A stretch of 64,000 nucleotides of DNA from a virus, in IMG/VR virus record IMGVR_UViG_3300020731_000774, positions 1 to 64,000 of that record; one strand, 5' to 3'. The notes below the pieces were generated by a model. It did no database searches. It had not been told where the DNA came from and saw only the letters and a list, made by a program, of their open reading frames with translations. Within the stretch, counting starts at the first letter, position 1. Each line of letters begins with the position of its first letter. Made by a program: the position numbers and the translations under genes. Shown here one piece after another: positions 29,695-56,422 of this stretch.

Positions 29695-30024
29695 TTATAC
29701 AATTACTTTCCAGTTATTGAAATATGGTTCTTTATCTAATAACCTATCTCTTACTGTTTTATAGACTAAGTCCAAATCACCAGAAGTTTGATAAATTGAT
29801 ATAAAATTATTGTTTATTTCACTAGGATTGAAATCATTATATATATTGTTTAATATATTGTTTATTTTATTATCCCTTTCCCACTTCTTAACTTCAGTTG
29901 ACCAACTATCAATAAAGAATATAAGAAAATCCTCAGTAGTATGATCTCTAATCATGTCAAAGTCTATCCCATCATAGAACCGAATAATAGATGTTGTAAT
30001 ATTTATCTCCTCAATTAATCTCAT
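29695..30024 (-). CDS. Hypothetical protein
   Basis: 109 residues, acidic, alpha/beta (MRLIEEINITTSIIRFYDGI, NDFNPSEINNNFISIYQTSG). No family recognised. It lies downstream of the polymerase gene but after its terminator. Confidence 0.45.
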   Translation of the reverse strand: MRLIEEINITTSIIRFYDGIDFDMIRDHTTEDFLIFFIDSWSTEVKKWERDNKINNILNNIYNDFNPSEINNNFISIYQTSGDLDLVYKTVRDRLLDKEPYFNNWKVIV

Positions 30025-30039
30025 AAAATAAAATAAAAT

Positions 30040-30070
30040 AAAAATGATGTAGATTTTCTACATCATTTTT
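30040..30070 (-). terminator. Terminator after DNA polymerase gene
   Basis: Arms AAAAATGATGTAGA and TCTACATCATTTTT (14 bp) with a 3-nt loop; overlaps the last codons of the polymerase on the minus strand. Confidence 0.8.
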
Positions 30071-31538
30071 TAGAAACCTTTCCAAATCCACCAAATATAT
30101 CCTGTATAACTGATAATCTTTCTGTAATTTCTGGCATACCCAATGGTTCAATAATTGTATTGATTGGTGATAAAATAGATTTAGCAAATTGTATATCATA
30201 ATCTATTTCAGGTGCTACCTCAATAGGTAATGATCCCCTAATATAGGCAAATATATCACCATTTTTCTTATTCTTACAATAATAATACTTAATCTTTGTC
30301 CCAGACTTAATAAATTCATATCGTGTTTGTAACTCCTTATTCTGTTTCAATAAATAATTATGATATGCACTTGCTTTAACTGCAAAGTGAGCACCATTAA
30401 CAAACTTTAATGGCAATGAATTATCATCAATTACCTTAGTATCATAATTAGAACAAGATGATTGCATTGAAATATCATCAATATCAGCTAACTCAAATTC
30501 CTTTCTAAGATTCTTAACCAATTTTAATAAGTCCTTTATGTTAAAGGTATCAGAATTCTCAAATAAATATTTAACAATTGTGATAATCTTTTCCCTTGCA
30601 AATAAAGGTGTGGAAGATCTTACCAATTCAACTCCCTTTGGAAATAAATATGTTAACCTATCGTAATTTATACCATCCTCAAATGAAACATGTTGAATAT
30701 ATTTCTTTTTTGCCAAACTGATAACCGATTCTGATATACGTTCTAACTCAAAATCTTGTCTGTTCTCAACACCATATAAATCACCATAATCTACTAAACA
30801 CTTTTTAAAATATCCACCATATCTGAAATGGTCTATACCTTGGATATAATCCAATTCTTTACACCAATTCCATTTAGGTTTAACCGTTAATGCACCATTA
30901 TTTATTAAATCATTTAAACCATAATCCTTAACAAATACACCATCAATTAAAACCAAATCATATTCTAATGTTAATAACTTCTCAAATTCATCAACAGTTT
31001 TAGAAATACCTAAACAATTTGGATTATTAAAACTTGGAAGTTCATTTGATAAAATGATAAATTTCTTACCAATGGAATTTAACATATTCGTGTTGAATAT
31101 TAAATTCTTCCATTCTGAATGTCGAATTGCTGGTTCAAATGACACAAAAAGAGAATCTGTGTCCGCGTAAATACTTACATTTTCATCCTCATTAATTTTA
31201 CTAACATTTTTTATACATAAATTCTTATGTAATTCAACATCTAGATGCCATTGATTGTGCCAATAATCTTTATTAACCTTATCCATTGTTTGTGTAAGCT
31301 GCCTACCTTGTGCAGTTATACTTCCAGCAACCGCATTATTATATAATACGAAGTAGGAAGCTGCCATCGCTCCGTAAGAACCGTTCAATACTAATTTTAG
31401 TCTTTTACCCCCAATACATTGTATTGGGGGCTACAAAAGAGCGAGCTGAAGGGCATTGTAATAGTCTGCCTCCTTCTTTAGCTCGCTCGCTTGTTTTTTT
31501 AAAGACTCGATCTTTAATTTTTTTTCTTCTCTAGTCAT
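30063..31538 (-). CDS. DNA polymerase B, C-terminal half, with bypass-like gap
   Basis: This is the motif B to C-terminus part of a T4 gp43-type family B polymerase. Motif B reads KLVLNGSYGAMA (Kx3NSxYG) and motif C IYADTDSLFVSF. Upstream in the same frame an ATG at 31538 opens 35 codons (MTREEKKLKIESLKKQASEL ... NALQLALL) that look like the finger helices, then TAG. Leaving out 39 nt joins NALQLAL to KLVLNGSYG with the spacing of T4/RB69 polymerase (478 residues in total). The exonuclease domain and motif A are absent from this window, so the gene is split between motifs A and B, a known insertion hotspot in T4-like phages. Expression needs bypass, or restart after the gap. The pol identity is firm. 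Confidence 0.8.
31398..31439 (-). other. Candidate translational bypass element in pol gene
   Basis: On the minus strand, CTT (31439-31437) is followed by TTG, the stop TAG (31433-31431), and an 11-bp-arm hairpin CCCCCAATACA / TGTATTGGGGG around one base (31430-31408); CTA (31400-31398) is the matched Leu landing codon. Outer bases CTTTT and AAAAG can also pair. A second stem of 14 bp with a 3-nt bulge (31488-31472 with 31452-31439) ends at the first base of CTT. The hop is 39 nt and in frame. Stop right after take-off, like codons, one hairpin in the gap and one 5' of it are all features of T4 gene 60 bypassing. Confidence 0.55.
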
Positions 31539-31619
31539 ATATATTATATCAGAAATAATCAAATTAGTTTTAAAGGGGGAGTATATTATTTTATATATAA
31601 TTAAAATAGTATAAACGAT

Positions 31620-32738
31620 ATGATTAAAGAATATAAGATTTTAATGAAGATAAATTATAGAAATGTATCACATTTTAGAAATTTAGGATATGAAATAGAA
31701 AATGGTGTTAAGGAAATGTATATTTCAGTTTGTGATTTGTTCCAGGGCTCAAATGTTAAGGTAACTGCGGTATGTGAAATATGTAGTTCTGAAAATATAA
31801 TAAATTATAGTAAGTATTTAGTTAATTTTAATAGGAATGGTAAAAACTATTATTCTTGTTTTAAATGTAAAAATATTGAGAAAGAGAAAACATGTATGGA
31901 AAAATATGGTGTTAAATCATATTCAATGACAGATGAATTTAGAGAAACAGAAAGTTTAAAATGGAAAGGCATTAAGAAAGGTGGTGATAAGGGTGAGAAA
32001 ACTATGTTAGAGAGATATGGTGTAAGATCTTATTTTGAAACGCAGGAAAGTAAGGACTATAATAGAAAGTGGATGTCATCTGATGAGTTTAGAAATAAAA
32101 GTAAGGATACATTGATAGAGAAATATGGAGTAGATTCATATTCAAAAACTGATGAATTTAAAAATAGAATGGCCGAACAAAATGAAGTTTCAAAGGAAAA
32201 GTCAAAATCTACATTTTTGGAGAGATATGGTGTTGAGTGGTATACTCAATGTGAGGAATATAGGAATACTTGTATTGAAAAGAAAGATGAGACTATCTTA
32301 AAAAATAAGGAAACATGTATGGAAAGATATGGAGTTGATAATGTTAGTAAAGTTCCTGAAGTACAACAATCTATGAAAAATACTAAAATAGAAAGAGGAT
32401 CTATACTACCTGATCATTTATTAAGTGAGTGGGAAATATATAAAAAGAATGTTAGACGAATAACTAATAAATTTGAAAAAGAATTATATGAAAACTGGGA
32501 TGGAATTGATCATTATGATGGTGAGAATATAAAGGGATATTTTTCACATACTCATACACATCGTTTCTATCCGACAATAGATCATAAAAATTCAGTTTAT
32601 TATGGATTTTTAAATAACATTGATCCAAGTGAAATTGGTTCTATTGAAAATTTATGTATAACTAAAAGATATATAAATTCTACCAAATCCAGGATGATAG
32701 AGAAAGAATTCTTAGAAAAGTTAAAAAACCAATCCTAA
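31620..32738 (+). CDS. Homing-endonuclease-like protein with YGV repeats
   Basis: 372 residues. N-terminal zinc-ribbon-like pairs (CEICSS, then CFKCKN, about residues 57-84) are followed by five repeats of the form TxxExYGVxSYSxTDEFR at about 35-50 residue spacing (for example EKYGVKSYSMTDEFRE, EKYGVDSYSKTDEFKN, ERYGVDNVSKVPE). The C-terminus has an HNH-like TIDHKNSVYYGFLNN and SIENLCITKRYINSTKS. This architecture occurs in phage proteins regarded as free-standing homing enzymes. It lies on the opposite strand, 82 nt from the start of the split polymerase half, as expected of the invading element. Confidence 0.65.
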   Translation: MIKEYKILMKINYRNVSHFRNLGYEIENGVKEMYISVCDLFQGSNVKVTAVCEICSSENIINYSKYLVNFNRNGKNYYSCFKCKNIEKEKTCMEKYGVKSYSMTDEFRETESLKWKGIKKGGDKGEKTMLERYGVRSYFETQESKDYNRKWMSSDEFRNKSKDTLIEKYGVDSYSKTDEFKNRMAEQNEVSKEKSKSTFLERYGVEWYTQCEEYRNTCIEKKDETILKNKETCMERYGVDNVSKVPEVQQSMKNTKIERGSILPDHLLSEWEIYKKNVRRITNKFEKELYENWDGIDHYDGENIKGYFSHTHTHRFYPTIDHKNSVYYGFLNNIDPSEIGSIENLCITKRYINSTKSRMIEKEFLEKLKNQS

Positions 32739-32744
32739 TTCTGA

Positions 32745-33113
32745 TCATAAAACCACATTAGTATCACTATCCAACCCATTTTCATTGGTAAATTGGTTTT
32801 CATCCACATTTTCATTTATAATTAGTTTATCGTCTTTTATAATTTTACTAGGTCTTTTATAGTCTTTCATAACCTTAACTGGTTTTTCAATTATTATAAT
32901 TTTTCTTCTATTTAATGAATTTATTATGGAATCTTTTTCTAGTATTTCGTATTGTAGTATTTCGTTATCTGTGATTAGTTCGTTATTGTCTTTATTCATA
33001 TTATTCATAACATATAATAGTGATATTATCACTAGAATAAGCACATATGGAAATCTTGAATTTCTCACATTATTTCTATAATATGTTCGTCTATTATTCA
33101 TATTCACTTTCAT
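32745..33113 (-). CDS. Small single-TM protein
   Basis: About 122 residues from the ATG at 33113 (a Met at 33101 is a second option). A basic N-terminus rich in Arg/Asn is followed by one transmembrane helix (PYVLILVIISLLYVM, about residues 24-40) and a hydrophilic, partly coiled tail (ILQYEILEKDSIINSLNRRK). A membrane-anchored, type II orientation is likely. It overlaps the end of the clamp gene by 20 nt. No family recognised. Confidence 0.5.
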   Translation of the reverse strand: MKVNMNNRRTYYRNNVRNSRFPYVLILVIISLLYVMNNMNKDNNELITDNEILQYEILEKDSIINSLNRRKIIIIEKPVKVMKDYKRPSKIIKDDKLIINENVDENQFTNENGLDSDTNVVL

Positions 33114-56390: not shown

Positions 56391-56422
56391 AAAAACCCCT
56401 TAGAAAATTCTAAGGGGTTTTT
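56391..56422. terminator. Bidirectional terminator hairpin
   Basis: Arms AAAAACCCCTTAGAA and TTCTAAGGGGTTTTT (15 bp) with a 2-nt loop, between converging methyltransferase 3 and the large tail gene. Confidence 0.9.

Follow-up and report, generated by a model that had tools for sequence, protein, structure and literature searches.

A probable mobile translational bypass element beside a putative homing endonuclease gene in a split phage DNA polymerase

Translational bypassing is established for gene 60 of phage T4 and for yeast mitochondria, with few further suspected cases, and gene 60 is the sole phage gene in which it was shown until now. The gene 60 element comprises a 5′ stem-loop, which forms behind the ribosome, a takeoff stem-loop, which prevents use of the A site, a stop codon, and matched takeoff and landing codons (PMC11194080, PMC5009743). 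Minimal pairing at the landing site can suffice in T4, as far as Herr et al. 2004 is cited in PMC3014915. The T4 insert may have protected against the nuclease (PMC5009743, PMC3014915, PMC11194080). According to a review of 2016, counterparts of this bypass have long been presumed to exist (PMC5009743). Our literature search, which covered few subscription papers and preprints, revealed no description of the elements reported below.

The window analysed here, a 64,000-nt stretch of a 77.7-kb viral record, harbours a 39-nt insert in a DNA polymerase gene. Judged from sequence comparison, the insert is probably a programmed translational bypass element that is mobile and coupled to a neighbouring putative homing endonuclease. 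The first-pass annotation of the window had recognised the layout of T4 mobA and gene 60 in a different gene and with a different nuclease family. The present analysis agrees, as a homing-type gene is followed by a gene half in which a bypass-like gap lies close to the 5′ end.

The polymerase half and its interrupted reading frame

The minus-strand ORF 30063-31388 matches Pfam DNA_pol_B (5e-15, from profile position 162) and PHROG 262 (6e-45) and encodes a family-B DNA polymerase of which the C-terminal half is present. Homology with 19 uninterrupted relatives places the start of the gene, polC, at ATG 31538, and polC, broken by the 39-nt gap, extends over 30063-31538 on the minus strand. TTG 31388 was rejected as the start, being merely the first start codon past an in-frame TAG. 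The product covers the fingers from just before motif B, motif C and the thumb, and the exonuclease, palm and motif A are missing. The Pfam and PHROG matches thus bear out the earlier description of a polymerase half that starts in the fingers and lacks the exonuclease and motif A.

No second polymerase or further polymerase piece was found in the window's own 77.7-kb record. The N-terminal half, which the first-pass annotation had proposed to look for, is absent from this record and was found in seven larger relatives, as a separate ORF of about 500 aa located 43-172 kb from polC. Some of these seven genomes holding both halves possess the insert, and some do not. A full-length polymerase had been named as the finding that would speak against the proposed cassette, and none is present in the 77.7-kb record or in the seven relatives. 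Among described phages, LR745206 and LR756502, huge phages of 634 and 642 kb, come closest, with 69% identity over polC. Their genome sizes place both in the Mahaphage clade, with Bacteroidota as predicted hosts (PMC7162821).

All 19 insert-free relatives share the split, their polC begins with MTKEEK- at the same place, and none (0/19) has a DUF7487 gene, the type found beside polC in the window, at that position. Because of this, the polymerase split is best read as ancestral and not as the work of this nuclease, which is ruled out as its cause; the mobile part would be the gap together with the nuclease gene.

At the region where uninterrupted relatives read MTKEEKIKKIELLKKKASDLKKEVDYYNALQLALKLVLNGSYG, the window carries exactly 39 extra nt between CTT (codon 34) and AAA, the Lys of motif B. 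The insert parts ...YYNALQLAL from KLVLNGSYG. All parts of the element lie on the minus strand. The 5′ reading frame from ATG 31538 has 34 codons (31437-31538; MTREEKKLKIESLKKQASELKKEADYYNALQLAL), the last of which is the takeoff codon CTT (31439-31437). The coding gap, delimited by homology with insert-free relatives and including the landing codon (31398-31436), reads TTG TAG CCCCCAATACAATGTATTGGGGG TAAAAGA CTA. The in-frame stop TAG (31431-31433) is the second codon past takeoff. Folding predicts a gap hairpin, H2 (31408-31430), with 10 bp and a 3-nt loop, which begins 6 nt past the takeoff codon and leaves this codon outside its stem. A spacer of 7 nt separates H2 from the landing codon CTA (31398-31400; Leu), likewise placed by homology, and reading would resume at AAA 31397-31395. 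The takeoff and landing codons, CTT and CTA, encode the same amino acid and are not identical.

Two further features were observed outside the element. A symmetric hairpin between converging genes, CCCCTTAGAATTTTCTAAGGGG (window 56396-56417), has A and T runs at its sides and is probably a two-way terminator. Intein-like inserts are present at motif C (YGDTDS) of polC in L045, L046, L054, L055 and L061, with ends such as ..HTFIANDILVHN. Several of these loci possess the motif C insert and the motif B gap together, and polC therewith gathers several kinds of mobile insert.

Distribution of the inserts and of the nuclease gene

Searches of viral contigs and annotated phages gave 51 distinct polC loci, including the window. 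The search for the element in relatives, suggested by the first-pass annotation, was productive: 32 of the 51 loci are interrupted by an insert of 36-48 nt within motif B or close to it, and in the other 19 the insert length is exactly 0 nt. All insert-bearing phages are metagenomic. Eighteen of 42 phage records searched contain the hairpin pattern, each at polC, and it occurs in none of the insert-free phages; one more record matched the pattern, but elsewhere only or on the hairpin's opposite strand. The occurrence of the pattern at polC is far beyond chance. Inserts are located after the Leu or Ala of LAL, after the Val of KLV, or after the Gly, Ser or Tyr of NGSY. Two further inserts were reached via the nuclease, in L179 (Leu) and L182 (Val, GTT -> GTA).

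The 28 deduplicated elements have a constant order, consisting of a takeoff codon, 6 nt, a hairpin of 9-11 bp, a spacer of 5-14 nt, and a landing codon. An in-frame stop is found within two codons past takeoff in 25/28 and immediately next to it in 3/28; TAA, TAG and TGA all occur. All three frames are represented among the gap lengths (12/8/8 of 28), and a stop inside the gap shuts the downstream frame in 19/28 and the zero frame in 27/28. The median dN/dS of polC beyond the gap is 0.14 with the insert and 0.12 without it, and the polymerase downstream of the gap evolves under purifying selection. Since the frames are closed by stops, the lengths fall in all frames and the polymerase beyond is under selection, the gap must be skipped or removed.

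This bears on two other explanations. A stop codon beside a conserved motif might suggest a degenerate remnant in a polC pseudogene, a reading to which we give almost no credence, as the selection on the downstream part is alike in carriers and non-carriers, the records searched hold no second polymerase, and compensatory structure and synonymous codon choice are maintained. Stop readthrough or programmed frameshifting through the gap, adding 12-16 polymerase residues, is hardly more credible. It would suit the window taken alone, with its 39-nt gap, halves in frame and a single TAG between them, and many Leu-type gaps open with a run of T, which is compatible with frameshifting. Nevertheless, the gaps of most relatives are in other frames, and those of the 19 elements mentioned hold downstream-frame stops; to accept readthrough just for the window would disregard that the rest of the family has an identical architecture. 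With these frames shut, readthrough, or one frameshift followed by reading through the gap, was rejected for the family. No tRNA gene, as a possible suppressor, was found in the window.

In each of the 20 elements outside the Tyr type (Leu, Ala, Val, Ser, Gly), which is 20/28 overall, the landing codon encodes the amino acid of the takeoff codon. The eight Tyr-type elements (L017, L018, L021, L024, L025, L030, L040 and L060) have AAC, GAC, AGC, TAA or CAA as landing triplet, and a Tyr codon in 0/8. Several of these triplets look like relics of TAC, and re-pairing at landing would be possible only in part.

The gene beside polC (31620-32738, plus strand) is divergent, starts 82 nt from the polC start, and is predicted by profiles, motif and structure matches to encode a DUF7487/HNH-type homing endonuclease, in line with the zinc-ribbon/HNH-like gene described earlier on the opposite strand. 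Its product possesses three DUF7487 stretches (2.5e-22), a zinc-ribbon-like N-terminus, and an HNH-like C-terminus, YPTIDHK...NLCITKRxINSxK, the main residues of which are invariant among relatives. It also matches a PHROG homing endonuclease (2e-11), and the first five PDB matches of the predicted structure are HNH nuclease domains, all weak (E 0.2-1.2). By its motif and the weak structural matches the nuclease domain appears HNH-like, and the enzyme is a putative one.

A gene of the DUF7487 cluster lies directly upstream of polC, divergent, in 18/32 carriers and 0/19 non-carriers (Fisher 3e-5), or 16/28 against 0/19 after deduplication (P = 2e-5); the remaining 14/32 carriers are without a DUF7487 gene directly beside polC. 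The proposal of a cassette made of split polymerase and nuclease therefore stands as regards the linkage of the nuclease to the gap, but not as regards the nuclease as splitter, given the split in 19/19 insert-free relatives. The nuclease sequences form two groups, one near Leu/Ala/Val inserts and one near NGSYG inserts, with L024 and L064 as exceptions. Single-sequence searches with the nuclease gave almost no matches. The alignment-based search revealed 80 loci, and such a hairpin was absent at those of them that lie away from polC. GIY-YIG/NUMOD3 genes on the minus strand replace the DUF7487 gene upstream of polC in one carrier (L050:5032-5796) and in one insert-free locus (L035:5061-5822).

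The presence of the insert required 13 changes on a tree of 38 polymerases, the mean with shuffled labels being 13.0, and no phylogenetic signal in element presence was detected on this tree. Beyond the gap, the polymerases of L014 and L018 are identical, yet the elements of the two genes differ, as do their insertion sites. L015, which aligns with L017 at 91.6%, has neither the gap nor the nuclease gene of L017 and represents the empty site for both. L021 possesses the gap and no nuclease gene. Inserts thus come and go, differing in presence and position between near-identical polymerases.

The nuclease would presumably cut the motif B DNA of insert-free phages, and the insert would disrupt this DNA. 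Because the presumed cut site is disrupted, the nuclease gene, the flank coding for the stem-loop and the gap may spread jointly by homing, and the gap could persist once the nuclease gene is lost.

The same layout is present in a second gene. On an unrelated 36.9-kb contig, an element at L285:4601-4735 interrupts the Walker A motif in the gene for a large terminase subunit, which matches Terminase_3C. The 39-nt element consists of GGT, TTT TAA, CCCCCTTTGTTAATTCAGAGGGGG, TGACTT and GGA, followed by the AAA of Walker A. Its 5′ stem-loop has z = -5.1, and 0/1000 recodings were as stable. The terminase site is uninterrupted in cultured relatives, namely Elizabethkingia and Flavobacterium phages, and no DUF7487 gene was found on the L285 contig, nor does any nuclease gene lie near the element. 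L285 offers a check of the layout on a gene other than polC, from whose family the layout was derived, although the pattern used in the scan included the stop and the hairpin ends; the matched codons and the 5′ stem-loop were outside the pattern. The scan of viral contigs gave 72 strong hairpins among the 119 matches listed, and besides the polC loci only L285 had convincing coding on both sides among the matches listed. None of the 85 stretches retrieved by a pattern scan of bacterial and archaeal genomes was a convincing element.

RNA structure and the proposed hop

In carriers, a long stem-loop is formed by the coding sequence before takeoff and extends to the takeoff codon or its vicinity. 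In the window this 5′ stem-loop (31434-31494, minus strand), in which GCGAGCGAGCT.. is paired with ..AGCTCGCTC, ends at or over the takeoff codon and has a synonymous-codon z of -5.7. Against random synonymous recodings, the mean z of its energy is -4.5 in carriers (28 elements; the region was one codon short in ten Tyr/Ser/Gly-type elements) and about -0.1 to -0.2 in insert-free genes. L021 is the exception among the 28 elements. At L021:5902-6090 the 5′ stem-loop is absent, and the hairpin stem is extended, with TATGTCTAA paired with TTAGACATA, and encloses the takeoff codon as in T4.

In both the 5′ stem-loop and H2, arms taken from one element pair better than arms exchanged between elements (P = 2e-4 each), and H2 is more stable in sense than in antisense RNA in 22 elements and the reverse in 2 (sign test P = 4e-5); as the compared elements are akin to one another, these structure P values are guides. 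The sense-strand bias of H2 points to a role at the RNA level. Leu-type elements may in addition form a short long-range helix, P1, in which codons 10-13 pair with the spacer that precedes the landing codon (permutation P = 0.007, likewise a guide). In the window, its 3′ strand would be AAAGACT (31399-31405, minus strand) and its partner AGTCTTT at 31507-31501. A paired change, GTCTTT:AAAGAC in the window and L005 versus GTCATT:AATGAC in L019, is consistent with this helix, the reality of which is tentative. The peptides before the gap are alike in carriers and non-carriers, save for the Ser in 'ESL' (polC codons 9-15, 5′ strand), which is present in 23/28 carriers and 0/19 insert-free relatives. 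This Ser is apparently set by the RNA structure or by co-conversion with a travelling flank.

The main rival of bypass is excision, in which the gap, a tiny structured RNA, would be cut out of the mRNA and the flanks rejoined, either by the RNA itself or with the help of phage or host enzymes, leaving the ribosome a continuous message. To our knowledge, 36-48 nt is far below the size of known self-splicing introns. The junctions possess no common consensus, yet match each other as codons and change together at other sites, splicing would leave no role for the three kinds of stop, which keep to a fixed codon position, and no Rfam match above threshold was obtained in 30000-33000. We therefore consider excision unlikely, even if it would account for gaps in all three frames, for the conserved structures, and for the possible P1 helix as joining both junctions.

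Re-initiation would involve no joining at all, the short 5′ peptide and the rest of polC being made separately, as a third piece of a polymerase that is already split once, with the hairpin helping. GTG or TTG occurs in the downstream frame within the gap at some loci, and TTG 31388 is available in the window, whereas an ATG in that frame is found within the gap in only 1/28 elements. Moreover, Tyr/Ser/Gly-type gaps cut motif B itself (NGSY/GAF), so that the conserved Lys, Asn and Tyr would end up apart from the rest, in a peptide of some 40 residues, and the 5′ stem-loop and the matched landing codons would be left unexplained. Re-initiation is accordingly a very improbable reading, though less so than the readthrough discussed above.

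Most likely, ribosomes jump over the stop-containing insert. Stem-loops can block the A site, and hairpins 11-12 nt from the P-site codon hinder tRNA binding (PMC7282821). Because A-site hairpins have this effect and the parts of the element correspond to those of T4 gene 60, we infer a bypass from CTT to CTA. The ribosome would translate polC as far as codon 34 (CTT), where the hairpin 6 nt downstream would hinder both A-site filling and termination. The peptidyl-tRNA-Leu would then detach from CTT, and the upstream stem-loop, re-forming behind the ribosome, may favour forward movement. The tRNA would re-pair at CTA beyond the hairpin and reading would resume at AAA, giving an uninterrupted polymerase half, ...NALQLAL-KLVLNGSYG..., with the junction ...NALQLALKLVLNG.... 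Takeoff codon and stop are usually separated by a sense codon, and the hairpin would have to account for this codon being skipped.

We lean slightly towards the view that these elements represent a general class of short mobile 'translational introns' in phages of Bacteroidota. Such elements would be self-contained modules (5′ stem-loop, takeoff codon, 6 nt with stop, hairpin, landing codon), carried by homing endonucleases into catalytic motifs of different essential genes, such as polymerase motif B and terminase Walker A. They would work with many tRNAs, and in some cases the landing site would be positioned by a long-range helix in the mRNA.

Comparison with known systems

For decades, close study of phage bypassing was confined to gene 60 of T4. 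The family described here comprises over 30 natural elements, uses six takeoff amino acids and, besides empty sites, includes a second gene. Its members can be compared as to the essential parts, the tRNAs able to hop, and the choice of the landing site. The idea that bypass arises as self-protection in a homing cassette can be put directly to the test, as there are natural pairs distinguished chiefly by the cassette. In practice, essential genes of this kind will be annotated as broken by gene callers.

Split gp43-type DNA polymerases, for example those of Aeromonas T4-like phages, are polymerases made as two chains. Unlike these, the split described here, before motif B, is common to a whole group of huge phages and is untied to the nuclease. 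Inteins in DNA polymerases are likewise mobile, occupy catalytic motifs and vanish without trace from the mature protein; the insert reported here differs from them in being a non-coding gap of 36-48 nt and not a protein-coding sequence.

Similar to the elements at polC, the byp elements in the mitochondria of Magnusiomyces capitatus are many short non-coding inserts in conserved genes that are skipped in translation, with codons that are sometimes partly matched (PMC5009743). The elements described here, in contrast, are located in phage genes and possess strong conserved stem-loops and a link to a nuclease, whereas mitochondrial bypassing seems independent of mRNA context (PMC5009743). The suspected bypass of Streptomyces phage Hau3 affects a terminase gene, like L285, but involves a UUA codon and a much shorter gap (PMC5009743). 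A 29-nt hop was reported, without follow-up, in Prevotella loescheii, a member of the Bacteroidota (PMC5009743). Unlike the present elements, neither the Hau3 nor the Prevotella case has a family or a nuclease.

T4 gene 60 and mobA share with this locus a split essential replication gene and, beside the downstream cistron, a homing endonuclease gene, HNH-type in T4 and putatively so here (PMC5009743, PMC3014915, PMC11194080). In both, the early part of that cistron is interrupted by a gap of tens of nt, following codon 46 in T4 and codon 34 here, and a stop soon after takeoff is accompanied by a 5′ stem-loop, a gap hairpin, and matched takeoff and landing codons. They differ in that the present elements affect a DNA polymerase, and also a terminase, with a DUF7487-containing nuclease and gaps of 36-48 nt. 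The hairpin starts 6 nt past the takeoff codon here, whereas that of T4 encloses it, and the stop is usually one codon further, the TAG of the window being the second codon and not directly after takeoff. Codons for Leu, Ala, Val, Ser, Gly and Tyr are used, in contrast to GGA only in T4. The gene halves are far apart here and the nuclease gene is divergent. Finally, many copies and empty sites are available for the present family, whereas T4 gene 60 is one known case.
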